The notes below the pieces were generated by a model. That model was not told where the DNA came from, ran no database searches, and saw only the letters and a program-made list of their open reading frames with translations. Below are positions 424 to 14,511 of a stretch of 64,000 bases of DNA, piece by piece. The DNA comes from a virus, in the IMG/VR virus record IMGVR_UViG_3300032401_000006, positions 1 through 64,000 of that record. One strand, given 5' to 3'. The translations under genes were made by a program, and so were the position numbers. Within the stretch, counting starts at the first letter, position 1; every line of letters starts with the position of its first letter.

Positions 424-453
424 TGAGCCCCCTCCAGCTCTGTCCTCAAAACA

Positions 454-523
454 GGAAGCGGAAAGTCAGTGAGGTTTTCCGACCTTGTTGCCCAACGGAG
501 CGACCATTGAGCTATCCGCTTCC
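454..523 (-). other. 70-nt cloverleaf-like inverted-repeat element
   Basis: A perfect 9-bp closing stem (GGAAGCGGA with TCCGCTTCC) encloses three short possible arms. It resembles a tRNA (GCGGATAGCTCAATGG recalls a tRNA D-arm) but has no proper T-arm or anticodon stem. It lies between the capsid stop and the GIY-YIG start. An alternative reading is a 19-codon frame from ATG 526 (MEADSSMVAPLGNKVGKPH), which could be a first exon, but no ribosome binding site precedes it. Confidence 0.4.
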
Positions 524-554: not shown

Positions 555-627
555 CTATCCATTGAGGATATTGTAGATGACCCCAATGCCACCGGTAAAG
601 TAGCACTCTAGTACCTCATGAGCATAT
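555..627 (-). CDS. Major capsid protein exon 4
   Basis: 73 nt encoding the last residues: the base that completes Val, then YAHEVLECYFTGGIGVIYN and ILNG, stop TAG at 557-555. The pattern YEHG-VYAHEVL-CYF-GGIGVI across the exon 3/4 join matches the end of many phage capsid proteins. Confidence 0.75.
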
Positions 628-3600
628 CGTGATTTGTTGCCAATAGATCCATAAGATCTATGGGCGCGGTCATTTCTGCCGCGCTCTGCCCTTGATTTCG
701 GGGTAGACCAGACTTTACCTTCACCCTTACGCTGCTTTCAGCAGTGGGGTGCTCCGTTTCAAGTCGTTGCACCTTCCCCTTGCAGGGGCTTGGCTCAGTC
801 TTCGCGTCTCAGCGTTGACTGAATTTACGGAGTGTTTGCATCCCTGATTTCTCAAGGAGGGGGCAATTTCTTTTACCCCATGCTCATACTGTCTCTGCAC
901 CAGCGCCCACTCGTAGTCAGCGTATTCCTGAAGGGTCCGCACGACGAACACAGAATCGACGTCGGCCTTCGGATACGGCAACCGCTCGCACAGGGCGATA
1001 ATCATCCCGGGCGGGAGATACGGGTGGATCATGAAGGGGATGATGTCCGGGCTGCCTGGCGTCAGCGAGGACGTGAACTTGTTCAGGTCGATTTTGTTAC
1101 TCATAGGTCTAAGACTTTTTGAACCAAGGCTGATACGTTCTTCTTTACATCACACTCTTTCATCCGCACAACCTTGTAACCGGCTGCTCGATACGTCTTG
1201 TCCTTTAGCCTGTCTCTGGCTATCGCTGTAGCCGTGGAATGCCAATACTCCCCATCGACTTCAATAACCAGCTTTATCGATGGAATATAAATATCCGGGA
1301 AATAACCAGCAATGAACTGGTGTTTGCAAAACTTTATATGACGACTCTTCAATTCACTTTGGACTTTACGTTCCAATGATGATTCAGAGTGCCATTTAAG
1401 CATTCTCTGTTTATGGGCAGCTTCTGCTTGTTCTTTAGTGAGATTTGCCCACCATTGCTTGTGCCATTCAGAGTTTTTTCGTCTTGCATCTTCACCGTAC
1501 ACTATTCCGGTCAATGCTTTTCGTCGAGCTTCGATATGGCGTTTTGATTGTTTCTTACCACGCAATGCTCGGCTTACTGCTGCCCGCCATTCATCAGTAT
1601 GAACATAGCCGACCTTAGCTTCACAAAGATGCTTACGATGTTCCGGAGTAAATACTCTTCCTAACGCCGCAAGTCTCATCTTCTTCTTGGTCGCTCTTGA
1701 ATGGTGAAATCCCGGTTTCCTTGACATTCTTTTTCTTAACCTATGGATGTGGTCATTTCTGCCACATTCTGCCCTTCAATTAGGGTTAGTTCAGACTTTA
1801 CCTTCATCCTATGCTGCCAATGGCAATGCAGGATGCTCAGTTTCAAGTCGTTGCACCTTCCCCATTGATGGGGCTTGGCTCAGTCTTTGCATCGCAGCAT
1901 TAACTGAATTTACTGAGTGTTTGCATCCCTGATTTCTCAAGGAGGGGGCACCTGTCTTGCACCCCGTGACATAAAACCCGCCAGTGAGCGTCTTCTGATC
2001 CGCACCCATGTTCATCGCGATGCGGAAGCCGGCGCCGGTCCCCGTGGATCCGACGACCTTGGAGGTGATGTTGAGCGCTTCCTGAGCGTTCAAGAGAATG
2101 ACGGTCGGGCCGATCCTCTTGTTGTCCCAGAACCACTTCAACATCGCGTCGAGCTGGGTGATCCCGCACGCATTGTCAGCCGTGAGAGCAATTCCATCCA
2201 AGCTCTTCAGATAAGAACCGGAACCGGACATGAACGCCTGGGTGATGATCCCGGAGAAGTCGTTCGCGTCCTGCGAAAGATCTGTTCCCGGAGTGGTCAA
2301 CGCGGCGTAGGACTGACCCGTTGCGGTGAGAGCAGCAGAGGCGCCGCTGTCCCAGGAATTGGTGGTGACGACGTCCTGGAGATACCACGGACCTGCCGCG
2401 ATGCCGACATAGACCGCGTAGGCCACGGCACCGTTGACGCCAGTCCAGGTCGCCACGATCCGCTTGTTGGTGACGTTCGTGCTGTCGGCAGTGACGCCGG
2501 CAATACCCTTCCCGTTGGCGATCGGGATGGCCGTGGTGATGCCCGCGCTGCTCACCGTCCGGCCAAGATAGCCAAACAGGTTCAGCGGGACGATCTTCAC
2601 GGTGTTGGTGACGGCTGTAACTCCACCGGTCGCGGAGACGGCGAGGGTCGGCGCACAAGTGGTCGTGCCGTCCATCGCGATGCCTTCCGTCGAACTGGCG
2701 TTGCCGCCGAGCAGGAGTGCTTCCTCTCCGATCATCGTCGCCTGAAGCGTGGCGAGAGCGGACACGGCTCTGAGATCCTCAAAACCGCGACCCTGCCAAA
2801 AGGCTTCAAACTGAACGACGTCGTCCATGCCGATCGACTTGTAGGTAGCCGACTTGTCACCCGTGGTGTAGGTGATCGCGGTGTTCCTGGTTCCGAAGGC
2901 TACGGACGCCTTCAGGTTGGCGGTATTGATGCCCGTGATCGTCTTCCAGTGAGTCGCCGCCGAACCGATCGCACCCATCTTGCGGGCGAAACGATTGCGG
3001 AGCGGGGATAACCAAATTTGTTGCTCTGACTCCGGCGAGTCAGGGATGAGACATTTCTGCTCACCTCTTGCAGTCACCTGCAAGTTCAGACTATGTCTTA
3101 AGAAAGTTTTCTTTGACGACGATCGGCCCATAGTTTCAATGAAGCCTGACGATGGCGTTCTTTCACTTCTGGTCGATTGTGAACCCGGCAGCGCTGTTCT
3201 CGTACTTCTGGCCGATTGTGAACTTCTTTCATTCGAGCCCAATAAGCAATAAGTCCAGCACCGCGAATTTGTCCGTCTAAGATAACACCTTTGCTTCTGA
3301 GATATTCTCGAAGCTGTCGGCGTCCAACGCTGTGCATCTTGGCTACTATATTGACAGAGTGGAAACGCTTGTAATCCTTCATCATTTGCTTCCAGTCGAA
3401 TCTGGCTCGATATTTGACCCAGCGAGCTTTCATGATTTCGCTGAGTCCAATCATCTTGCATGTAACTCGACTTTTCTCGTAAGCCTGCTTCCACTTTTTG
3501 TTGGTCTTTATAGACATCCCCTTGTTCCAAGGCGCGTGACCCCACATAGGGTTGTTCGAACCTCGCTGGCTTTTGCAGATTACGGTTTGAACAGACGGAA

Positions 3601-4452
3601 CTTCTCCGGGAAGTTTGTCCATAAGTTCTTGAATCTTCTTTACACATAATAATGGAGTTCCCATTATCGATGCACCGCGAAGACGAAGAACTGTGAACCC
3701 AGCCTTCATCATATTTCTGTCTCGATTTTGATCCTTTCGTTTCGAGACAGCCAATCGATGAGTCCAACCATCTGCTTCTATCACCAACTTTTTGCCAGTA
3801 ACAAGGAAATCGACTACATATCTGTCCAGTAGCTTTTGTTGACACACAAAACTGATCCCAGCTTGTCTCATTACTTTCTGAAGAGCAATCTCTATCGGAG
3901 AGTACTGTGACTTGTGAGAACTGTTTGCAAGTTGCCTGATCGTGGCTTGTCGGTGGCGCTCCCTCGTTATTGGATTCTTGTGTGCTTTCCTCAAAGCAGC
4001 TAAATGATGAGGGGGTAGCGTTCCGTTGTACAACTTCTTTAGAGCTTTGCTGATATTGTCGCCACGTTTGTTGTTTCCCTTGCGCATTGACTTTCTCCTC
4101 CGCGTATAGTCGTTCGGGATTCTTGATGGCGGCTGCCACCAATCTTTCCACGGCGTTGTCTTTACAAATATAACCTATTCCTAGACAGAACAGGATATAA
4201 ATAAAGAGTTTCGTCGTAATAGCGGAGTTTAGACCCAGCATTTGATCCCCTTTTCTAGTTTACTGGGTATAAATGTTTCGAGGGTCCACTGAGATCGTAC
4301 CCAGTCAATCCCGAGCTGGTCGTCAACCCGGTCTTCATGATCTCCGGGGGCAACAGCGAAATGGGCTTGCCGAAAGCCTCTTTCGTGAGGTTCAGCACAG
4401 CCTGATACTGCTCCATCGTGCCGATGGATGAGGGTACTAAATTCTCGTTCAT
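555..4452 (-). CDS. Major capsid protein, four exons split by three group I introns
   Basis: HK97-fold shell subunit. Joining 4452-4262, 3012-1961, 1088-875 and 627-555 gives one open frame of 509 residues; the phases match exactly (exon ends at codon positions 2, 1 and 2). Exon 1 begins at ATG after GGAGG and ends KHLYP. Exon 2 carries the bulk of the fold (ATHWKTITGINT near its start, GGFYVTG at its end). Exon 3 gives YLNKFTSSL, HPYLPPGMIIAL, YPKADV and RQYEHG. Exon 4 gives VYAHEVLECYF and the terminal GGIGVIYNILNG. The splice points were placed by reading-frame continuity, capsid-like sequence across the joins and intron P1/P10 pairing. Unspliced, no single frame encodes the protein, so splicing is required. 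The prohead protease/scaffold gene lies directly upstream. Confidence 0.85.
628..874 (-). ncRNA. Group I intron 3 in capsid gene, no ORF
   Basis: 247 nt from after exon-end GGGGT (875) to a final G (628). P1 pairs exon GGGGU with internal guide GCCCC. The core contains GGTGCAACGACTTGAAAC and a P7-like AAAGTCTG. A hairpin GCGCGG..CCGCGC with loop CAGAAATGA follows, then a terminal hairpin ATAGATC..GATCTAT. It is closely similar to intron 2 over about 200 nt. P10 pairing to exon 4 is weak, so the 3' end rests mainly on reading frame. Confidence 0.75.
875..1088 (-). CDS. Major capsid protein exon 3
   Basis: 214 nt. The two bases AC complete a Tyr codon with the last T of exon 2, giving VTGYLNKFTSSL across the join. 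The exon ends at YEHG plus GT. A naive caller would start a separate gene at ATG 1104, but the stretch is plainly capsid C-terminal sequence and ATG 1104 lies in the intron. Confidence 0.75.
1089..1960 (-). ncRNA. Group I intron 2 in capsid gene, carries EDxHD endonuclease
   Basis: 872 nt. The core (about 1740-1960) comes first and the endonuclease gene fills the 3' part, ending 12 nt before the 3' splice site. The internal guide CAGGTGCCCC pairs with the joined exons GGGGU|ACCUG along all ten bases (one U.G at the splice site), which fixes both boundaries. Core motifs are GGTGCAACGACTTGAAAC and AAAGTCTG. Stems differ from intron 3 by paired changes (ATGTGG..CCACAT against GCGCGG..CCGCGC), supporting the fold. 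Confidence 0.85.
1101..1727 (-). CDS. Intron-encoded Vsr-fold (EDxHD) homing endonuclease
   Basis: 208 residues inside intron 2. The N-terminal half is Arg/Lys-rich with NUMOD-like DNA-binding segments (RRKALTGIVYGEDARRKNS). The C-terminal half is a Vsr/DUF559-type nuclease: FIAGYFPDIYIPSIKLVIEVDG, with the ExDGxxxH motif (E, D and H of IEVDGEYWH), a downstream Asp (ARDRLKD) and the strand YKVVRMKE. This matches the I-Bth0305I type, whose members often sit in phage introns. Its TGA (1103-1101) lies in the intron just before the 3' splice site. Expected role: cutting intron-less capsid alleles so that the intron spreads. Only a weak purine-rich site precedes the ATG. Confidence 0.8.
   Translation of the reverse strand: MSRKPGFHHSRATKKKMRLAALGRVFTPEHRKHLCEAKVGYVHTDEWRAAVSRALRGKKQSKRHIEARRKALTGIVYGEDARRKNSEWHKQWWANLTKEQAEAAHKQRMLKWHSESSLERKVQSELKSRHIKFCKHQFIAGYFPDIYIPSIKLVIEVDGEYWHSTATAIARDRLKDKTYRAAGYKVVRMKECDVKKNVSALVQKVLDL
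1961..3012 (-). CDS. Major capsid protein exon 2 (central domains)
   Basis: 1052 nt running from the base that completes the Val codon, then LSPLRNRFARKMG, to GGFYVTG plus one base. Reading past position 1961 enters intron 2 and yields a low-complexity nonsense tail. It contains the A-domain and spine-helix regions expected of an HK97-type shell protein. Confidence 0.8.
3013..4261 (-). ncRNA. Group I intron 1 in capsid gene, carries EDxHD endonuclease
   Basis: 1249 nt from after exon-end CCCAGT to a final G at 3013. P1 pairs exon CCCAGU with guide GCTGGG (six pairs, U.G at the splice site); P10 gives three pairs with GTT of exon 2. The 3' end holds a P7-like ATAGTCTGAACTTGCAGG, as in the phage T4 td intron, and the same CAGAAATG loop as introns 2 and 3. 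Unlike intron 2, the endonuclease gene lies between the 5' domain and P7. The exact subgroup was not determined. Confidence 0.8.
3098..4087 (-). CDS. Intron-encoded Vsr-fold (EDxHD) homing endonuclease, 329 aa
   Basis: Starts at ATG 4087 behind GCGGAGGAGAAAGTCA, a strong site inside the intron. Residues about 62-165 form the nuclease: LLDRYVVDFLVTGKKLVIEADG, with the E-x-D-G-x-x-x-H motif (IEADGWTHR), a following Asp (KDQNRD) and the strand FTVLRLRG. The flanks are basic and repetitive (RPEVREQRCRVHNRPEVKER), probably DNA-binding NUMOD-like units. It shares fold and motif with the enzyme of intron 2 but is longer and carries its catalytic domain near the N-terminus. The role in intron homing is inferred. 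Confidence 0.8.
   Translation of the reverse strand: MRKGNNKRGDNISKALKKLYNGTLPPHHLAALRKAHKNPITRERHRQATIRQLANSSHKSQYSPIEIALQKVMRQAGISFVCQQKLLDRYVVDFLVTGKKLVIEADGWTHRLAVSKRKDQNRDRNMMKAGFTVLRLRGASIMGTPLLCVKKIQELMDKLPGEVPSVQTVICKSQRGSNNPMWGHAPWNKGMSIKTNKKWKQAYEKSRVTCKMIGLSEIMKARWVKYRARFDWKQMMKDYKRFHSVNIVAKMHSVGRRQLREYLRSKGVILDGQIRGAGLIAYWARMKEVHNRPEVREQRCRVHNRPEVKERHRQASLKLWADRRQRKLS
4262..4452 (-). CDS. Major capsid protein exon 1
   Basis: 191 nt, 63 codons plus two bases (GT). The frame would otherwise stop four codons into intron 1 (PVN then TAG). Sequence runs from MNENLVPSSIG to GPSKHLYP, typical of the N-terminal arm of this capsid family. Confidence 0.8.
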
Positions 4453-4496: not shown

Positions 4497-7400
4497 CTAT
4501 TGACGTTTCCTGATCATGCGGAGGGCCAGCTCACGTCCGAGCGCTTGCTTGGTCAGCGGATCCTGTGTTGAATCCACCAACTTCGTTAGCGTGATGATCT
4601 CGGAATCGATTCCGGGCTGTTCCCTTGCATCACCTTGAACCGTCGCTTGTCTTGGATCCACCGCTTTCACGATGGGCAATGCAGGTGCTTTCTCCACTAC
4701 AGCCAGGCGTTGGGCTTGTTCGTCGAGCCTCTTCGTGACGCCAGTCACGGCTTCGGTCACCTTTGCGATGTCACCTTCTTGCTTTGACGTAATCTCTGCA
4801 ACTTTGGTAACTCCGTTTGTGACTTCAGCTTTCAGATCGGTCGACACAGACTTGATCTCGTCCGTGACGATTGCTTCCAAACTTGCAAAATCTTCCTGGA
4901 TGCCTTCGACTTCTTTCGTGACCTTCTCGACCGAACCATCGACGGCCGTCTTCACAGCATCCTGAAAGTAAGAACTCGAGGCCAGCAACTTGTTCACGTC
5001 CACGCTGACCGCTTTCGTGATGTCCATCTGGCCGATTCGCTCGACGACCGCGGCGGTGATCTTCTCGATCACGGCGGCCTCGAACTTCTCTTCGGCAGGA
5101 ACGGGCTTGGGATTCTCAGGTACCTTACAATCCGCCCCGAGATCACAGGCGTGGTCGTGCATGGCCTGGATCTTTGCCTGATCAGCAGCATTGTTCCGGC
5201 GGCCTATCTTCTCCAGGTCTGTCCCTTCAACCTTCTTGGCCGTCTCTTCCTCCATCTTTTTCTTCTGTTCTGCGGTGAGGTTCGAGAAGTCCGGGGTCAG
5301 TTTCTTGGAGCCTTTCTCTTGATCATACCCGGTCAGGTTTATGTTGGTGGTAATTCCTTCTGCTTTCTCGACCTTCTCTTCAGCACCGTGAACCGTTCCA
5401 CCTTCCTCGGTCAGCTCCTCGGAGATTTCGACCAAGAACTCATCCCATGACTTCTGCATGAGATCTTTCTTCTCGGTGGCCGTGAGTGATTCCGACTGGA
5501 GGGCGTTCAGGAGGATGCGGGCGAGCGTGGAAGTCCACATGGGAAACAGGATGACCTCTTCGGTCTCTTCCCAAACCTCACCAAAGGACTTCGGGATGAA
5601 TCGGATCTCACCACCTTCGGACAAAGCCGGAGATGATTCGGTGGGCCAGGGCACATCCTCTCCCTGCTTGTTGATGGCGGAGAATTCCTTCTCGGTGAAC
5701 TTCCGGACGTCGGAGGATTCAGACTTCTCCTTCTTGTCTTCCTTCGCCTCCTCTTCCGGTTTCTCCTTCGCCTCCTCTTCCTTGCTGCCCTCTTCGCCAG
5801 GCTTCTTGCCCGTGGCTTCCGCCTCTTCCTTCTTTTTCTTCGCGTCGATCTTGTCCTGGATGAATGCCGGGAGAGCTTTCTCGACCTCGGCCACAGGTTC
5901 GATCTTCTCGACTAGCGGAGGTGCCGGAGCCAGCCCGACCTCGACGGCTTTCTTGAAAGCAGGGGTCATCTCAGGAGCCTCCAGGATCCCTACAGCCTCC
6001 GTGGTCACCAAGCCACCATCGGCCGACTTCACCAGATACACCGTTGCCTTGGCATTGGCTGGGTTGTCAACCAGTGAGGCCTCCGAGAACGTGTCGCAGA
6101 AGAGACGGTTTGCCTTGACAAGCTCGGCGCCCTTCTGAACTTCGCAAGGTTCACGACGATACCTGCCGTGGGGCACACCAATCGAAAAGCCCTTCAGCGT
6201 CCCATCCAGCAATTTCTCCCACGTCGACTGCGCCCCCTTCGAGATGTAGACGCCGATGTCGATCTTGCGTTGGGCGTCATTCGGCATGATCTCAACAGCA
6301 GATCCGACGGCCTTGGTCGTGTCATGCATCTCGCGGATGTTCTTCGGCCAGATCTCGACGGCCTTCTTGGCGGCGTCGTAGTCGACGATGTCACCCTGCT
6401 TGTCGAGGTCCTCCGTAGTCATGGTTCCATAAACCATTCGACGTTCCTGGTCAACCTTTGAGATGGGAAGGGTCAAGAACACCGATCCCTCCGTGGCTGC
6501 TTTTTCTACTTGCATTTCCTGACCCTCCTGGGTTGATTTGATAATTGCGTCCTTACCGATCTCCGTGTCTTCGTCCTTGCGGAGTTTGACACCGGTAACT
6601 CGAATTTTCATCTTTCCACCGAGATCATATTCAGTCTTGGTGTAGTCCTTGATCCCGTAGTCTTTCAAAAGCTTGTCCGTCTTATTCTGCCCCATATCGA
6701 AGTGCTTCTGGAGAAACGCGTCGAACGGATCATGCTTGATCGTCACCGCCAGTAAGTCACCCTCTTTGTCAATCTTGGTCACATGCCCAGCCAGGACACC
6801 GAGAGTGAACTTTGGCGTCATATAGTTCAACTCTTTCACGGAGGCTTTCAAGTCCCGCTTCAGCGCCGTACTCAGATTAGAACTGTCGATCTTCTTGCTC
6901 AGACCGTCACGGAGCTTATCGAACTTGGCAAAGTCCTTCTCCGCGGCAGCCTGCCCCATCTGAGTCAGGTGAAGCTCTCCGCCCTTGACGTAATGAAACA
7001 TCCCGGGCAGCTTCTCACTAGTGAACAACGACAGGTTATCAGATACTCTGGTCGAGGTACCAAGCAGATCTCCCTTGAAATCTATAGTCGTATCGTCATG
7101 TGTTTTGATTACGTTACAGATCTGATCGTACTTTGCTTTAGAGAATATCTTGCCCTCGTTCCACTGCGCCCGTTGCTCTTCTGCTATGGCTGCACTGAAA
7201 ATCTTATGATCACCCGATACCATGATGCCACGCAGGCCACCCTCTCTCACTAGCGGCGACGTATAGCCGATGTCATGATTGACCATTATGAATTGCTGAG
7301 CCAGCCGATCCTCTGCAGATACCTGCCCGTCAGACATCTTCACCATGATGTCATCAGCCCTGAGTGCATTACCAACCAGGTGCCTGATACCATGATCGGT

Positions 7401-8150
7401 GAACTGCTGGCGGTTAGATTCGACTTCTTGATATACCAGCTTCTGAACCGAGTCCTGCATCATGGCGTCTACGGATCCGGCATCCAAGTCCTTTAGTGAC
7501 GGATCACGCAATATGGTACCGACGCGATCGACATAGTCCCGGGCCCGAAACGTAGTATCTCCCGCCAGATATCCGGTATAGTTATGAAGCTGCTCGTTCG
7601 CGTTGAAGATAATCCTGCCCGCATTCTCTTCCGACATCTTTCCGACAACCGGCACGAGCTTGGCCCGATCTTCCGAGATGACTCTCAGATTCTTACTCAT
7701 ATTTGAGCGTATGTCGGAATACTTCGCCTGAGCCATCCTCATCTCAGGTGTGATTTCCTTCGCATCGGCCGGATAGTCCTTTATACTGATTCGTCCCCCA
7801 GTTTTTACAGACGGTGTCTTTTCTCCACCACCACTACCGCTATCTTCTGAACTAACAAACTGTCCGCCGTCAGAACTACCCTCCTCTGCACGTGGGTGCT
7901 CGGACTCATCCCACTTCTGAAGTTTTGACTCTTCGATAGCCTTAGTAATCTCCGCCTCGGACATCTTCAGTTTCTTTCCTACGACACCCCACGCCTGAGC
8001 AAACGCCTGCCCTTCACACTTCTTCGGATCTCCCCCCTTATCCGTACAGCGACTAAAAACAGAATTCCATATGGCACGCCACTGTCTCTGCTTTTTCGGG
8101 AGCAGCTGCTTGACCGGATCCGGCAGAGACTCGATCGTAGGGTACGGCAT
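4497..8150 (-). CDS. Prohead protease/scaffold polyprotein with ChaB and HD domains
   Basis: 1217 residues from ATG 8150 (TTAGGAGATTGGAA ahead); an upstream in-frame ATG at 8234 has no such site. In order: a ChaB-like domain (residues 1-58); the joint motif KWDESEHPRAEEG..GGQFVSS (79-101); an HD-type hydrolase (DHGIRH, VNHDIGY, DHKIF, KTHDD, RVSDN supply the metal ligands); then an XkdF-type capsid protease region (DQERRMVYGTMTTEDLDKQGD, MHDTTKAVGSAVEI, GTLKGFSIG). The tail is long, charged and coiled-coil-rich and resembles a scaffold. It lies just upstream of the capsid gene, as protease/scaffold genes do. The HD domain inside it is unusual; its substrate cannot be told. Confidence 0.75.
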   Translation of the reverse strand: MPYPTIESLPDPVKQLLPKKQRQWRAIWNSVFSRCTDKGGDPKKCEGQAFAQAWGVVGKKLKMSEAEITKAIEESKLQKWDESEHPRAEEGSSDGGQFVSSEDSGSGGGEKTPSVKTGGRISIKDYPADAKEITPEMRMAQAKYSDIRSNMSKNLRVISEDRAKLVPVVGKMSEENAGRIIFNANEQLHNYTGYLAGDTTFRARDYVDRVGTILRDPSLKDLDAGSVDAMMQDSVQKLVYQEVESNRQQFTDHGIRHLVGNALRADDIMVKMSDGQVSAEDRLAQQFIMVNHDIGYTSPLVREGGLRGIMVSGDHKIFSAAIAEEQRAQWNEGKIFSKAKYDQICNVIKTHDDTTIDFKGDLLGTSTRVSDNLSLFTSEKLPGMFHYVKGGELHLTQMGQAAAEKDFAKFDKLRDGLSKKIDSSNLSTALKRDLKASVKELNYMTPKFTLGVLAGHVTKIDKEGDLLAVTIKHDPFDAFLQKHFDMGQNKTDKLLKDYGIKDYTKTEYDLGGKMKIRVTGVKLRKDEDTEIGKDAIIKSTQEGQEMQVEKAATEGSVFLTLPISKVDQERRMVYGTMTTEDLDKQGDIVDYDAAKKAVEIWPKNIREMHDTTKAVGSAVEIMPNDAQRKIDIGVYISKGAQSTWEKLLDGTLKGFSIGVPHGRYRREPCEVQKGAELVKANRLFCDTFSEASLVDNPANAKATVYLVKSADGGLVTTEAVGILEAPEMTPAFKKAVEVGLAPAPPLVEKIEPVAEVEKALPAFIQDKIDAKKKKEEAEATGKKPGEEGSKEEEAKEKPEEEAKEDKKEKSESSDVRKFTEKEFSAINKQGEDVPWPTESSPALSEGGEIRFIPKSFGEVWEETEEVILFPMWTSTLARILLNALQSESLTATEKKDLMQKSWDEFLVEISEELTEEGGTVHGAEEKVEKAEGITTNINLTGYDQEKGSKKLTPDFSNLTAEQKKKMEEETAKKVEGTDLEKIGRRNNAADQAKIQAMHDHACDLGADCKVPENPKPVPAEEKFEAAVIEKITAAVVERIGQMDITKAVSVDVNKLLASSSYFQDAVKTAVDGSVEKVTKEVEGIQEDFASLEAIVTDEIKSVSTDLKAEVTNGVTKVAEITSKQEGDIAKVTEAVTGVTKRLDEQAQRLAVVEKAPALPIVKAVDPRQATVQGDAREQPGIDSEIITLTKLVDSTQDPLTKQALGRELALRMIRKRQ

Positions 8151-8285
8151 TTCCAATCTCCTAATTTTACGCTTAACTGACGGAGCCGGGTCGGAAAACC
8201 GATCCGAATAGTAGCACGTGGGGGTACGTCCCAAAAACGTCTACCGAGCTGTAAGGACGAGTTCCGAGCTGTTTTTGCACGTTTG

Positions 8286-8474: not shown

Positions 8475-9703
8475 CAGTTTCCCTTCAACCGACGGACGAT
8501 GTACTTCGGATCCATACTCTCTGTATCGTCAAAAAAGTTCTCCTGGTTATATGAGAATACGGCGTGCATTTTAGTAACGCCTCCGAGTACGACTACCTCT
8601 GATTCGTTTACACAACCAAATCCGGTTCTCGGAGTGGCGATAATCTTACTGACCGGAATCTTGGCGGCAAGTATCATCGGGTACATATCGTCCTTACTGC
8701 CAACAAAATTAGCCGCCGTATTAACATTCGTAGAGAATGACGACATTGGTTGCATACGAAGCGTCAGCGTCTTGACAGCTACCCGCTCAGAATCTAGGGC
8801 ACTTCGCATCTCTGCCGTTACAGATTCTTGTGGTAGTCCAAGTCCACGAAATACGGTGACTTCAGTAACTCCGTTCTTCGCATAAAAGTCTTGCGTCTGG
8901 TTATACATCGTGCGAAGAAATACGCGTGCCCCTTTCATCTGAAGATCGGCTTCTGGCTTAACAACCCACTCTCCATACTGTTCACTAATATGCTCACCAG
9001 CGTGGTCTAGTGTAGCACCAGTAAGATTAAACTCCTTCTTAGCTGCAGCCTGAAGAACCATAGCCGTCGGATTATTATCCAGTGAAGTACTTGCCCATGA
9101 GTGAACAAGTTGTTCTTCTGGTGAAAGTGGTACTGGATAATCATCTGCGCGAAGTGTAAATACCTTCGTAAACGCATCATACGCAGCCCTGTCTTCTAGA
9201 CTGAGCTTCGATAGCCGATCCTGGAGATCCTTCTCAACCTGCTGCTTTAGCCATACTGCTCGGTCAGATGCTGGACTGCCGACGGCCATCTGACGGATAT
9301 AGTTATCATCCAGCTTCTTCCAATTATCTATATCACTTGAACTTGGGATATCACCCTCTCCAATAAATTCTCCAGATCCACTACTACTGGCAAAGCGGCC
9401 TCGCTCGTCATGCACGTCGTTGAACTTCTTTACAGGCTCTTCAGAAAACTCCAGCGGGTCGAAGCCGAGCATGGCAACCACTTCCGGTGGTGTCACGTCC
9501 AGCTCTTCGTCGTCATCGGGCTCATCGGCAAGAATAGCACGCCAATCTTCCGGCTCGTCAGCTCCGATAAACGTAGCTTGTGGGAAAGCTATGGCAGACT
9601 TCTCAACCTTCTCTTCACCCAGCTGCTTCCTAAGCCTGGCAAGGGTCGCCTCATCCACGGGCCTGCCAGATAGTGATACTACTGTAAAAGTATCAGCTGG
9701 CAT
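8474..9703 (-). CDS. Virion-region protein with C-terminal ADP-ribosyltransferase domain
   Basis: 409 residues from ATG 9703, 11 nt inside the end of the upstream gene; an in-frame ATG at 9772 lies deeper in that gene and is less likely. The N-terminal 90 residues are acidic. Then comes the joint motif KKFNDVHDERGRFASSSGSG (about 92-111), then a helical stretch, then a mono-ADP-ribosyltransferase fold of the R-S-E class: Arg286 in VTVFRG, Ser/Thr at 322-325 in SSFST, and the ExE pair 367/369 in VNESEVVV. The family transfers ADP-ribose from NAD+ to proteins. Delivery with the DNA, as for T4 Alt, is a plausible role but is inferred from position among head genes. Confidence 0.75.
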   Translation of the reverse strand: MPADTFTVVSLSGRPVDEATLARLRKQLGEEKVEKSAIAFPQATFIGADEPEDWRAILADEPDDDEELDVTPPEVVAMLGFDPLEFSEEPVKKFNDVHDERGRFASSSGSGEFIGEGDIPSSSDIDNWKKLDDNYIRQMAVGSPASDRAVWLKQQVEKDLQDRLSKLSLEDRAAYDAFTKVFTLRADDYPVPLSPEEQLVHSWASTSLDNNPTAMVLQAAAKKEFNLTGATLDHAGEHISEQYGEWVVKPEADLQMKGARVFLRTMYNQTQDFYAKNGVTEVTVFRGLGLPQESVTAEMRSALDSERVAVKTLTLRMQPMSSFSTNVNTAANFVGSKDDMYPMILAAKIPVSKIIATPRTGFGCVNESEVVVLGGVTKMHAVFSYNQENFFDDTESMDPKYIVRRLKGN

Positions 9704-12179
9704 CCCACGCACCCCATCTTCTAGTCTTTGACATCTGCTTATATACTTGCGCGACTGAGAATGACCGAGCATCCGTTATGGCATAATACTTGTAATACGC
9801 ACCCTTGTCATAAAACTTATTAAATACCGGATCAAAGACTACGTTATCCTTCTCAGCGAAACCGTGAAAGTAAACAGAATTCTCAAAATTGCCAATCTGA
9901 GGGTATAACGTAGCGTGAACCACTTTCCAGTCCGGGTTGTCGGTTACAAACTTTGCAGCCATCTCATAGCACAGCCCTCTACGTTCACCGTAATCATTCA
10001 CTACAATACCTTCAGGTGTGTCTACTTCCGTAGGCCCAGCAATAGCCGTAAAGATATCTACAGGGTTGCCATCCTCATTCAGATCGCGACGTAACACGTC
10101 TTCTGGCACGCCCTTCTCTATCCTGGCAGCGTCAGTCTCACAATATCTACCCTTATCCAGATATTTCGTACCCGGACCGTACTTGGTCGGGAATCGCATA
10201 TCTCTCTGATGCTTGGGCACCCCACTTCCGCCTCCGATAAACTTCCCGTCCTCTCCACGCGGGTGGTCTTCTTCGTTCCAGTCCTTCTCCAAATCAGTAT
10301 TCTCAAACTTGCCAATATGAGCACCTATGAGCCACTTCGAAAATACTACCGGGTGTATATAGGACTGAAGAGCTACAGTCGGTGTATTCCCCAGCTTGGC
10401 AGAGACCGCTTTCGCCACATCCTTTACGGCCAGCTTGTATGTCTTCTCGTCAGACGGAGCAGGCATCCTGGCAACCACCTCCTGAGCCGTACGTGTGCCG
10501 AGTAAGGTCCTAAAGTCCTTCGTCTGAAATCCACCATGATCCTGCACGTGCGTATAGTCGAGTACCTTCCCGGCTGTCGTGTTGAATATTCGTCCACTCG
10601 GGCCCGCAGCATCCCGCCTAGCCAAGAGATCCCTGGCTACCGCGCGGTCGTTTACCGGAATATCCAGCGCAACACCCTTCTTACCGACAAACACCAGCCG
10701 CACATTATTGGGACTGTCACCAACCACGTGCTTTCCCATAAGCGTCGTGGCCCCGTAGGCCTTTACCGCACCACCAGTATCGTTCTCACCTCCAGGACGA
10801 AGGCCGGTTCTCATAATTAAACGAAGTGCGCAGGCCTCTTCCTTATTACGACCGAACTGTATGTCCCGGTTGACGTCTGACGAGATTCGCCCTTCTTCCT
10901 TGTCGAGCTCCTCTATACGGGCAAACTTTGCCGTCGCCTGTTGCTCTTTCCAGGGCTTGCTATATATGGTTTGCTGACGGCCCTTGCTGTCATCTCCAAC
11001 AGCATGGATGTCATCATTGGGATCTTCACTATATCGTACGTTCTTCCAACCCGGAGGGATTCGTATGTGCTGAAAGTGCTCCGGCAGATCCTTTCCGCTC
11101 TTCTGCTTCCAGGTCTTGCTTTCCTTATCATAGATGGCATTCTGGCCACCACCTTCGGATACCCACCGGCCGCTCTCGTCCCGCTCCTGGTTCTCATCAA
11201 ACCTCTTCGCTAGAGCAGACTTCATCCGAACCGTGTATATGAACCACCGCTTCGGTCCCGGCCCGAGGTGCATACTGTATTCCGGCACCAACCCCTTCTT
11301 ACGCAGTATGGATACTGCGTGCTTCCACCCCTTTACGGGAGGGATGTCGGTGTGGTTCTCGGAATTAAAAATGATCTTCTTGCCAGTCTTCAAATCTCTG
11401 AGTGCCTGCTTAGCCTCGTCCGAGATCAGCTCGTCTTCTTCTCCGTGGCCACCACCATACGTATACTGGTTAATACCCTCCGGATTAGACTTCTCCAGCT
11501 TCTGAAGTATGGCAGTCTCAACCTTCTCTACCGCAGCTAGGAACTCATCGTCGTCCAAGTCATCCGGCCCGAAGTCACCGGGCATCGGAAGGAAGCTACG
11601 TACACAATTTGGGTGTGAGAGTGGATACTGCCGCGCCACTTCCAGACTGATGATCAAACCATCCACCGCAGCACAGTCCTCATCACCGTCACCGTCCGAT
11701 ACCATTACCGCTTGTAGACCCGCCTGAGCGTATCCCTCAACCTGCCCCCATTGAAGTGCGTAGCCAGTCTCGGTACGCGCGATCATCTTCGCACGCCAAT
11801 CTTCCATACCCGAGAACGTATCTTTTAGCCCTTCCGTAATTCCTTGCAGACCAGACTTATCCGCCAGCGCCTGGTTGAAGACCCCCAGCAGCCGCGTCCG
11901 GGTGGTGTTATCTATTCCATTCACCAGCTGCTTGGAGAAGTCATCCAGGTCTCGGACTATCTTCTCGCCCAGCCGTCGACTGCGGATGAAGTCCTCGGTG
12001 TTCACGTCACGGATGTCGAAGTTGTCCTCAGGCAAGATCGTACCTAGTGCAGCCGAGCCACCTGCAGCAACTACGTCACGCCAGAGGTCAGCTATCTGCG
12101 GCGCATACTTCTGGCTTATCTTATCCAAGTCGATGTCATTGATAATGGCATGGATCTCGTCTTGGGACAATTCAGACAT
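9693..12179 (-). CDS. MuF-type head protein fused to type IB topoisomerase and a C/H/D domain
   Basis: 828 residues in modules. (a) 1-200: MuF/SPP1 gp7-like minor head protein (MIARTETGYALQWGQ, GDEDCAAVDG, PLSHPNCVRSFLP). (b) 240-320: small alpha/beta unit. (c) joint motif KRFDENQERDESGRW (325-339). (d) 360-620: type IB topoisomerase, with candidate catalytic residues Arg461 (TGLRPGG), Lys500/501 (GKKG), Arg557 (KDFRT), Asn598 (LGNTP) and Tyr607 (QSYIHP). Spacings match the poxvirus enzyme (R-to-H/N 41, H/N-to-Y 9). (e) second joint motif DWNEEDHPRGEDGKFIGGGSG (633-653). (f) a domain with Cys737 (RGLCYEM), His772 (YFHGF) and Asp783 (VFDP), suggestive of a papain/transglutaminase-like fold but not assigned. 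Start ATG 12179 overlaps the portal stop by 8 nt. Confidence 0.8.
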   Translation of the reverse strand: MSELSQDEIHAIINDIDLDKISQKYAPQIADLWRDVVAAGGSAALGTILPEDNFDIRDVNTEDFIRSRRLGEKIVRDLDDFSKQLVNGIDNTTRTRLLGVFNQALADKSGLQGITEGLKDTFSGMEDWRAKMIARTETGYALQWGQVEGYAQAGLQAVMVSDGDGDEDCAAVDGLIISLEVARQYPLSHPNCVRSFLPMPGDFGPDDLDDDEFLAAVEKVETAILQKLEKSNPEGINQYTYGGGHGEEDELISDEAKQALRDLKTGKKIIFNSENHTDIPPVKGWKHAVSILRKKGLVPEYSMHLGPGPKRWFIYTVRMKSALAKRFDENQERDESGRWVSEGGGQNAIYDKESKTWKQKSGKDLPEHFQHIRIPPGWKNVRYSEDPNDDIHAVGDDSKGRQQTIYSKPWKEQQATAKFARIEELDKEEGRISSDVNRDIQFGRNKEEACALRLIMRTGLRPGGENDTGGAVKAYGATTLMGKHVVGDSPNNVRLVFVGKKGVALDIPVNDRAVARDLLARRDAAGPSGRIFNTTAGKVLDYTHVQDHGGFQTKDFRTLLGTRTAQEVVARMPAPSDEKTYKLAVKDVAKAVSAKLGNTPTVALQSYIHPVVFSKWLIGAHIGKFENTDLEKDWNEEDHPRGEDGKFIGGGSGVPKHQRDMRFPTKYGPGTKYLDKGRYCETDAARIEKGVPEDVLRRDLNEDGNPVDIFTAIAGPTEVDTPEGIVVNDYGERRGLCYEMAAKFVTDNPDWKVVHATLYPQIGNFENSVYFHGFAEKDNVVFDPVFNKFYDKGAYYKYYAITDARSFSVAQVYKQMSKTRRWGAWDAS

Positions 12180-14511
12180 TCGGCACCCTGGACTTGACCG
12201 TACTGATAACCACCTGAGCCTGCTCGGCGAACATGCGGGCGAAGATTTCCTTCATCCGCTCTTCAGACCGCTTACGTATAATTTCCAGCTTGGGATCTTT
12301 CTTGGGGTAGGTGACTTTTTTAATATCTTCACCCTTCTCGATAGCTTCCAACTGCTCCTGGATCTCCCGCGCCGTATCTAAAGGAATCTCTTTCGTCTCA
12401 AACTTGCGCAGCAGCTTTCCCTGCTTGATCCGGTTGCGGACAAACTTGCGCCACGTCTGAAGCTCAACGTCGCACTTATTTATGTCCACGCTATCACAAT
12501 CATATTCAACCTCGGAGAACAGCTCGTCTACCTTCGCCAGCTTCTCTTCTCCGGTATCACGGACGACACCAACTGCACGGTCATCCCAAAGCTCAACCAT
12601 GTCCCGGTCTTTTACGTTCGTTATCGGTAACGCTACGCCGATATGCTCCAGGCACCAGTCACGGATCAGTTTCTCTGTCTGCCAGTTCTGCGCCGAATCC
12701 GGGCTGCTGACTCTGGCCGTCAGGATGCGGACTTCCTTGCCCTCGCCAAGCCACTGCTGGACCCGCTCGACCATCTTCGGTACCGGATCACCTATGACCG
12801 ATTTGTCTTTCGTATGCTCGGCCAGCGTGCCATCCAGATCAACTCCGTACCAACCACCCTCGGTGCCGTCACCTTTTTCGACTTTTGTCTTTGCAGCCAA
12901 AGCCTTGGACTCGGGCTTCGTGGCCGGGGGGCCTGCCTTACCGCCGGCCACTGGCTTAACGACAGGTTTTAATTGCGGCGCGGCCTTGACACCTATTGCG
13001 GGTGGCACGACCGGTTTAGTACTAAGCGGCGTTTCGGGCAAGGTTGGATTTTGCATTGATGCGGTGGCTGCTGCGGTGGTCTCGGTCTGAGTATCCTGAT
13101 TCGGGTGCTTCTCGAAATAACTCTTGTACTGCTGTTGATAATCCTTCGCCTCGCCCTCGATCGGTATGAAGCCAGTCGGCGACATGATACCATTCGGGAT
13201 CCCGATGGGCTTCTTGCCGGCGTTCATCCGGGCCTCATCGATGGAAATGATGCCGCTCTTGACGAGCATGACATCCTTCTCGGCCTGTGCCTTCTCGTCC
13301 GTCGTCCGCTCTTCAGTGAATATAAACCTAAGCTGTGGCATGCCCTGAACGGTCTGAATTTCGTTCGTTATGATATCCTCGATGAAGTTCCAGAGTGGTT
13401 CTGTGGCTTCGTCTTCCGCCGTGTCGGCTGTCTCCGCCGTGGACCGGTTCATCTGTGACACGTACGGAGTGGGGCTGGTGTGAAAGATGGCACAACACCT
13501 ACGGACGATGAACTCGGATATCTTCGTGACCTTGATCGACATGTCACGCTCGATCATTCGCTCCAGCTTGAACCCGTCGGGCATGAAGTGAAGGCGGTTG
13601 CGAAGATTCGGATCACCCACGATCGAAGCATTGAACTTGTCCGTGAATTCCATGATCTGCGTCATCGACCATTCCTTCGGCAACGTGGCGAAACCAGCCG
13701 GTACATTTCCCTGTGTGAAGTAGTTCAAATCATAGATGTCCCGACGAAGAGCTATGTTTATGTTCAGCAGCAGCCACTCGACTTCAGACATGCCGTATGG
13801 ACTGTCGTTCGACGGATTCCGAACGCAGTACAAAATCTGATCCTGGGTGAAGCCCTCATAGACAACACCTTTTATGATCTGCTGAAACGCCGGGTAGGGT
13901 GGAGCGGGCGGGCGACCAGTGACGTCGATCAGCGGTTTGATCGTCCTCCCCGACAAGACCTCGTGCGCGGCAACACCTTTGCCATCCCGGGTCGGCCAGC
14001 GGGCGATCGTCGCCGCGTCGTATAGATACGAGTCTTCAAGAAACGCCGCGATCCAGATAGCGAACGAATCCCTGCCGTTCGGCTTCATCCAATATTTAGT
14101 CAACGCCTCCATCTTGTCCTGATACTTGTCGATCTTGTCGCGTTCTGCCTCGATCGGCACGATGGCCCATTCACGTCCTCTGATCTTGTTCTTCTTCGCC
14201 TCGATGCAATACCTGACCGGATCCCAAGCAGCCATCGCCTGAAGAACGTCGAAGCCCGTCAGTCCGGCCCGTGGCATGAACTGGATGTTGTACGACGATG
14301 GATAATCCCACTTGCGGGTGTTCGCCATGTCCCGCTCGTAAGGCGCCAACGGCTCACCCGGAGGCATGAAGCCCGTCGAGAAACCACCGAGGGCTTGCGC
14401 GGCCTGACCCGCCAAGGACTGACTGCGGGCGGTCAGATATGCTCCTGGATTCTTGGCGATCTCCGACATGTCCGTTCTACGAACCAGATTGGTGTTGATG
14501 CTGGCAGCCAT
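12172..14511 (-). CDS. Portal protein with C-terminal HAD-type phosphatase domain
   Basis: 779 residues. Residues 1-470 are a phage portal of the SPP1/HK97-like class (FQQIIKGVVYEGFTQDQILY, ALRRDIYDLNYFTQGNVPAGF, MNRSTAETADTAED), the dodecameric DNA channel at the head vertex. A Pro/Ala/Lys-rich linker (about 470-550) leads to a HAD-superfamily domain (553-652). It has the nucleophile motif DLDGT (Asp558/Asp560), a motif II Thr in ILTAR (598) and an acidic DD pair in LWDDRAVG. A charged helical tail follows. The start has no strong competing ATG; the stop overlaps the next gene. A phosphatase domain on a portal is odd, and its target is unknown. Confidence 0.85.
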   Translation of the reverse strand: MAASINTNLVRRTDMSEIAKNPGAYLTARSQSLAGQAAQALGGFSTGFMPPGEPLAPYERDMANTRKWDYPSSYNIQFMPRAGLTGFDVLQAMAAWDPVRYCIEAKKNKIRGREWAIVPIEAERDKIDKYQDKMEALTKYWMKPNGRDSFAIWIAAFLEDSYLYDAATIARWPTRDGKGVAAHEVLSGRTIKPLIDVTGRPPAPPYPAFQQIIKGVVYEGFTQDQILYCVRNPSNDSPYGMSEVEWLLLNINIALRRDIYDLNYFTQGNVPAGFATLPKEWSMTQIMEFTDKFNASIVGDPNLRNRLHFMPDGFKLERMIERDMSIKVTKISEFIVRRCCAIFHTSPTPYVSQMNRSTAETADTAEDEATEPLWNFIEDIITNEIQTVQGMPQLRFIFTEERTTDEKAQAEKDVMLVKSGIISIDEARMNAGKKPIGIPNGIMSPTGFIPIEGEAKDYQQQYKSYFEKHPNQDTQTETTAAATASMQNPTLPETPLSTKPVVPPAIGVKAAPQLKPVVKPVAGGKAGPPATKPESKALAAKTKVEKGDGTEGGWYGVDLDGTLAEHTKDKSVIGDPVPKMVERVQQWLGEGKEVRILTARVSSPDSAQNWQTEKLIRDWCLEHIGVALPITNVKDRDMVELWDDRAVGVVRDTGEEKLAKVDELFSEVEYDCDSVDINKCDVELQTWRKFVRNRIKQGKLLRKFETKEIPLDTAREIQEQLEAIEKGEDIKKVTYPKKDPKLEIIRKRSEERMKEIFARMFAEQAQVVISTVKSRVPNV

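Follow-up and report, generated by a model that had tools for sequence, protein, structure and literature searches.

Three group I introns in the predicted major capsid gene of an uncultured tailed phage

The question raised by this locus is whether the broken reading frames at the start of the window (the whole stretch of DNA analysed, 64,000 nt, which covers positions 1-64000 of a record of 68,847 bp from an uncultured virus) are the parts of one capsid gene that is restored by RNA splicing. We regard it as nearly certain that they come from an uncultured tailed phage and make up its major capsid gene, with the coding sequence broken by three group I introns. The three introns are supported by agreeing lines of evidence: protein homology, RNA structure with compensatory changes, covariance-model matches and the placement of the nuclease genes. 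Capsid genes with several introns are a test of the intron load that is tolerable in an essential, highly expressed gene. Because the capsid protein is needed in hundreds of copies per virion, none of the three splicing events can afford to be inefficient.

Joined reading frame and exons

Joining the four exons (Table 1) gave a coding sequence of 1530 nt, i.e. 509 codons and a stop, and thus the single capsid frame of 509 residues that the original prediction had assembled from the same four segments. The predicted 24 residues of exon 4 were also recovered, provided that the residue split by the junction is included. Misreading of the locus by gene callers had been anticipated as well, and in ORF calling the exon 2 frame stayed open through intron 1 to give an 810-codon ORF, the remaining exons appearing as fragments. 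Since gene callers misread split genes, capsid genes of uncultured phages may go missing.

Table 1. Positions of the exons, introns and neighbouring reading frames in the window.
Feature	Position	Strand	Description
GIY-YIG homing endonuclease ORF	1-423	minus	directly downstream of the capsid gene; phrog_314 E 7e-34
Capsid exon 4	555-627	minus	24 residues including the split one, and stop
Group I intron 3	628-874	minus	247 nt; without ORF
Capsid exon 3	875-1088	minus	214 nt
Group I intron 2	1089-1960	minus	872 nt; endonuclease gene in P9.2; P1-P9.2 identified
Intron 2 ORF	1101-1727	minus	208 aa; NUMOD3 and DUF559/Vsr-like; Pfam E 6.3e-11
Capsid exon 2	1961-3012	minus	1052 nt
Group I intron 1	3013-4261	minus	1249 nt; endonuclease gene in P8
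Intron 1 ORF	3098-4087	minus	329 aa; DUF559 nuclease domain; PF04480 E 7.6e-14; PDB 3hrl E 1.6e-4
Capsid exon 1	4262-4452	minus	63 codons and 2 nt; start ATG at 4452
Upstream ORF	4497-8234	minus	1245 codons; head maturation protease domain, residues 580-743; phrog_9427 E 5e-32

The same intron arrangement was found at 99.9-100% identity in IMG/VR contigs of other samples (L001-L003, spanning all three introns or most of them; L004 covers intron 1), and this recurrence argues against an assembly error. A search of the 68,847-bp record with the capsid protein matched these exons alone and gave no second capsid gene.

Intronless homologues and exon junctions

Among the phage isolates, tblastn identified the capsid homologue as one uninterrupted gene in the Brevundimonas phages Polewnik and Strzyga. 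The Polewnik protein was 36.5% identical to the joined capsid over residues 58-506 (tblastn) and 41% identical in a global alignment, and compared with it the restored frame showed no stop and no frameshift. The IMG/VR homologue set was queried with the Polewnik protein and consisted of the best 80 of 402 stretches encoding a relative, a selection that biases it toward uninterrupted genes. Alignment to intronless capsids, which had been suggested as a check together with the original prediction, showed the joined protein to be continuous with the 80 uninterrupted homologues and with Polewnik. The homologues aligned through the junctions (79 of the 80 being scorable at junction 1), and intron-like sequence was absent there both from them and from Polewnik.

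In 79 and 84 aligned stretches, respectively, junctions 1 and 3 showed no gap up to 8 residues away, and at junction 2 the first gap was located 8 residues downstream, where the loop of the homologues is shorter. The multiple alignment of 28 homologues was gap-free within 4 residues of every junction, the homologue residues being LYPV/LTPLRN, VAT/YLNRF and YEYGV/YADEV (slashes mark the junctions). The insertion sites are situated in conserved parts of the protein: the mean identity of the three 10-residue segments was 0.675, a value reached by a fraction of 0.00063 of 100,000 random triples. The scan of bacterial genomes did not detect relatives of exon 2, and for 17.5 kb of the window no close DNA match was found among phage isolates.

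Intron structure and splice sites

That the three interruptions are group I introns, each with a P1 pairing ending in U.G, is supported by several features. P1 comprised 7 bp in intron 1 (ACCCAGU/GCUGGGU) and 5 bp in introns 2 and 3 (GGGGU/GCCCC), in all cases with the U.G end. All three introns had a terminal G at the 3' end, with AACAAA in common just before it, and the helices of the catalytic core (P3, P4, P6/P6a, P7 and P8) were found in each. Covariance-model matches below the cut-off and covariation, both described below, agreed with these features.

When every U within 40 nt of the proposed sites was scanned, the longest P1 was the proposed one in introns 1 and 3. For intron 2 there was an alternative 6-bp P1 located 12 nt upstream of the proposed site; the proposed site is preferred because no other joins the homologous frame gap-free. 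The P10 of intron 2 was as earlier described, with CAGGU against ACCUG. P10 was almost absent from intron 3, and in intron 1 it was limited to an offset AUCCCC/GGGGAU match.

The helices of the three introns were located by string matching, and some of them, such as P9.2 of intron 1, were picked after the sequence had been seen. Intron 1 included P3 (CUCCGC/GCGGAG), P6a, P7 (GACUAU/AUAGUC), P9, P9.1 and P9.2. For a few short strings, such as those of P4, P5, P8a and P9 of intron 2, the first match was at an unrelated earlier position, and the column-based counts apply instead. The fold z was -4.7 for intron 3 and -5.9 for the core of intron 1, from which the ORF had been cut out for folding.

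The Rfam scan at the gathering score listed nothing. In the E-value scan RF00028 (gathering score 50) matched intron 2 at 1769-1970 (45.6 bits, E 3e-9), intron 3 at 690-884 (39.2 bits, E 2.5e-7) and the 3' half of intron 1 at 3067-3151 (22.9 bits, E 0.019); the gathering score is a detection threshold rather than a structural feature, and the core of intron 1 is split by about 980 nt. Model R1 likewise matched the 3' half of intron 1 (E 6e-8). The 5' half alone was matched by neither Rfam nor R1, and its predicted structure rests on helices found by eye and on the minimum-energy fold of the ORF-less core. Positions 4500-64000 included no further group I matches.

Covariation and the relationship of introns 2 and 3

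Introns 2 and 3 were about 84% identical over 211 nt, with the same guide GCCCC. In their alignment, for which the ORF had been cut out of intron 2 (A3), the 239 aligned columns included 42 mismatches, and seven pairs had changed on both sides and were still paired. With random placement the mean number of such compensatory double changes was 0.65, and seven were reached in 0 of 20,000 simulations.

The closest nucleotide relative outside this virus (80% over 128 nt) was an intron at 5423-5672 (minus) of IMG/VR contig 3300025325_000480 (L120), situated in a gene that was read by eye as a capsid of another family and whose exon 1 had no match in PHROGs. In the alignment of all three introns 12 pairs had changed on both sides, the shuffled mean being 4.2 and the value of 12 being reached by 0 of 500 shuffles, and when the partner was slid by 1-3 columns at most 3 pairs were left. 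The three-intron count is lowered by the misaligned P1 of L120. P7 showed a compensatory change between L120 and introns 2 and 3.

Judged from these comparisons of sequence, introns 2 and 3 are sister copies. Intron 3 is the nuclease-less sister of intron 2 at a second GGGGU of the same gene; the joined coding sequence includes three GGGGT sites, two of which are occupied by these introns. The origin of intron 3 may have been guide-directed reverse splicing or acquisition from the same intron pool. Both are likelier than homing by the intron 2 nuclease because the flanking DNA is unlike, 7 of the 20 bases downstream of the two sites matching. Intron 3 as a deletion product of intron 2 was rejected on account of the different site and the compensatory divergence. 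Among phage isolates no useful relatives of introns 2 and 3 were found; a single core match of 37 nt was located next to the thymidylate synthase gene of a Vibrio phage.

Intron-encoded endonucleases

Both intron ORFs showed homology to DUF559/Vsr-like (EDxHD-type) nuclease domains, and both are situated in the loop of a peripheral helix. The gene in intron 1 is closed by P8 (AGAAAGU at 4096-4090 with ACUUUCU at 3107-3101) and that in intron 2 by P9.2 (CAUAGGU at 1745-1739 with ACCUAUG at 1108-1102), the strands being about 980 and 630 nt apart, respectively, and the 3' strand consisting in both of the last codons of the ORF. In intron 1 the Shine-Dalgarno-like GGAGGAG of the ORF overlaps the 3' strand of P3, so that folding of the ribozyme and translation of the ORF may be mutually exclusive.

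Residues 117-198 of the intron 2 protein matched PDB 3r3p, 'Mobile intron protein' (E 1.2e-5), which we take to be I-Bth0305I; the alignment is limited to the catalytic domain, and the protein of the present intron is a predicted nuclease. No relatives of the intron 1 nuclease were found among phage isolates. The likeliest role of the two nucleases is homing, in which capsid alleles lacking the intron would be cut in co-infecting phages and the intron copied into these alleles.

Splicing model and alternative readings

According to the proposed model, each intron in the transcript would fold its P1-P9.2 helices and bind guanosine at P7. Cleavage 3' of the U in the U.G pair would lead to joining of the exons and release of the intron, and three such events would produce one mRNA for the 509-residue capsid.

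Splicing may not be uniform, and if exon 3 were skipped in a sizeable share of the transcripts, a 420-residue capsid variant with an end reading YVTGYMLMRY would be formed. Such skipping could follow from the near-identical cores of introns 2 and 3, both of which pair with GGGGU, and it has precedents, as introns and exon skipping have been described in Bastillevirinae with Twort orf142 and a gene of phage SIOphi as reported cases of skipping (PMC11878797). We nevertheless consider a sizeable share improbable: the homologues retain the about 70 residues of exon 3 and the skipped product is frameshifted, so the skipped form is expected at most as a side product.

The introns could also be real and their host protein some other abundant virion protein rather than the major capsid protein. 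The protein's own PHROG, phrog_13692, is without assigned function, none of the Pfam families match it, and 'Major tail protein' is the name of one of its better matches in the viral library. The search of PDB sequences with the capsid profile gave nothing convincing, and the structure model, made of the homologue L019, was poor (mean pLDDT 56), with no PDB match at E <= 0.001. Its best structural matches in PDB, weak as they were, were nevertheless nearly all phage capsids (SU10 E 4.5e-3, HK97); the HK97 fold is only suggestive because this low-confidence model is of a homologue. Furthermore, major head or capsid protein is the annotation of its homologues in Arthrobacter phages Sonali and Mufasa8 and in Alicyclobacillus phage MMB025. 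The gene directly follows the maturation-protease ORF, and its Polewnik counterpart immediately precedes the head-tail connector. Another virion protein is therefore very unlikely, and by homology and gene order, with which the weak structural matches agree, the protein is predicted to be the major capsid protein.

Least probable of all is a reading without RNA splicing, in which endonuclease genes have entered the DNA and the capsid gene is either a pseudogene, decayed or disrupted, or misassembled: the capsid frame is indeed broken at three points, but each break is removed to the nucleotide by a group I-structured element, the intron RNAs are under selection as seen from the compensatory changes, and this reading was rejected on these grounds together with the intact restored frame, the recurrence in other samples and the lack of a second capsid gene in the record.

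Known split capsid genes

Capsid genes in pieces have been described before, and many other virus coat genes contain related introns. The mycobacteriophage LittleE has a capsid-gene intron whose splicing in infected cells was demonstrated by RT-PCR and protein sequencing (PMC3706429). As in the present case, a group I-like intron interrupts the major capsid gene, carries an endonuclease ORF, follows a U and ends in G; in contrast to it, there is one intron, the ORF is LAGLIDADG-like and on the opposite strand, and the phage is unrelated. In the crAss-like Zeta-group phage OLRF01000054 the capsid gene is in five fragments (PMC7886860). This is likewise a case of several group I introns in one major capsid gene from metagenomes, but with four intervening segments and in a gut crAss-like phage, the comparison being confined to the number of fragments. 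Twort orf142 reportedly has three group I introns as well; it too codes for a structural protein of the virion, but is a tail (tail tube) gene. With the five fragments of OLRF01000054, the LittleE intron, and the four-intron gene and further candidates (L131, L160) described below, calling a three-intron capsid gene unusual was too strong.

Related cores in other capsid genes

A new finding here is four introns in one capsid gene, that of IMG/VR contig L101. Its capsid fragments correspond in order to residues 1-24, 25-56, 57-121 and 122-220 of the L150 protein, and they are separated or followed by four matches of model R1. Two further contigs, L131 with four and L160 with six R1 matches within about 2.2 kb, are candidates for capsid genes with as many introns as L101 or more; some of the flanking ORFs match the phrog_1357 capsid. 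L194 has three R1 matches, with capsid exons.

The P6/P7 core pattern of introns 2 and 3 was found in at least 120 stretches. The ORF just upstream was classified for 111 cores, cluster members being assigned from one scanned representative each, and it was a major-head-protein exon in 41 of these, including L120 (by eye). For two other core patterns, among the 25 families listed for each, the corresponding numbers were 0 of 12 and 1 of 33 (Fisher p = 0.008 and p = 5e-5, respectively, against 41 of 111). If loci with a scaffold protein as the upstream ORF were included, the difference was 46/111 versus 6/33 (Fisher p = 0.02). A capsid-family fragment was located within 3.5 kb of 46 of the 106 dereplicated cores, a count that covers the introns 2 and 3 core type only and uses capsid fragments drawn from the same set.

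That this core type is commoner in capsid genes than the two other types is a lead, not proof, because the sampling of contigs was non-random and the controls were limited to the 25 families listed. A recent survey raised the question why phage introns favour genes of nucleotide and DNA metabolism (PMC11878797), and the capsid-rich sample of cores points, for one intron type, in the opposite direction. It is possible, although somewhat doubtful, that the lineage to which introns 2 and 3 belong has become a specialist of major capsid genes in unrelated phage families, multiplying within these genes by guide-directed reverse splicing, and that three to six introns per capsid gene are therefore a recurrent condition among uncultured phages.

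Neighbouring elements

Residues 554-624 in the C-terminal part of the portal protein (12172-14511, minus) matched phosphoheptose isomerase and polynucleotide kinase families, and the head gene cluster included an 828-codon ORF (9693-12179, minus) in which Pfam recognised the catalytic domain of a topoisomerase IB (E 1.6e-20). Immediately downstream of the capsid stop, at 446-523 (minus), there is a structured element for which neither ARAGORN nor Rfam gave a name; its fold (z = -3.9) is three-way and tRNA-like, with GGAAGCGGA closing it. The GIY-YIG ORF downstream is cut by the contig end and continues in L001 (8613 onward), where a long serine-proline-rich repeat ORF (SPSVSPS...) is present at 9756-11675, downstream of the capsid gene.
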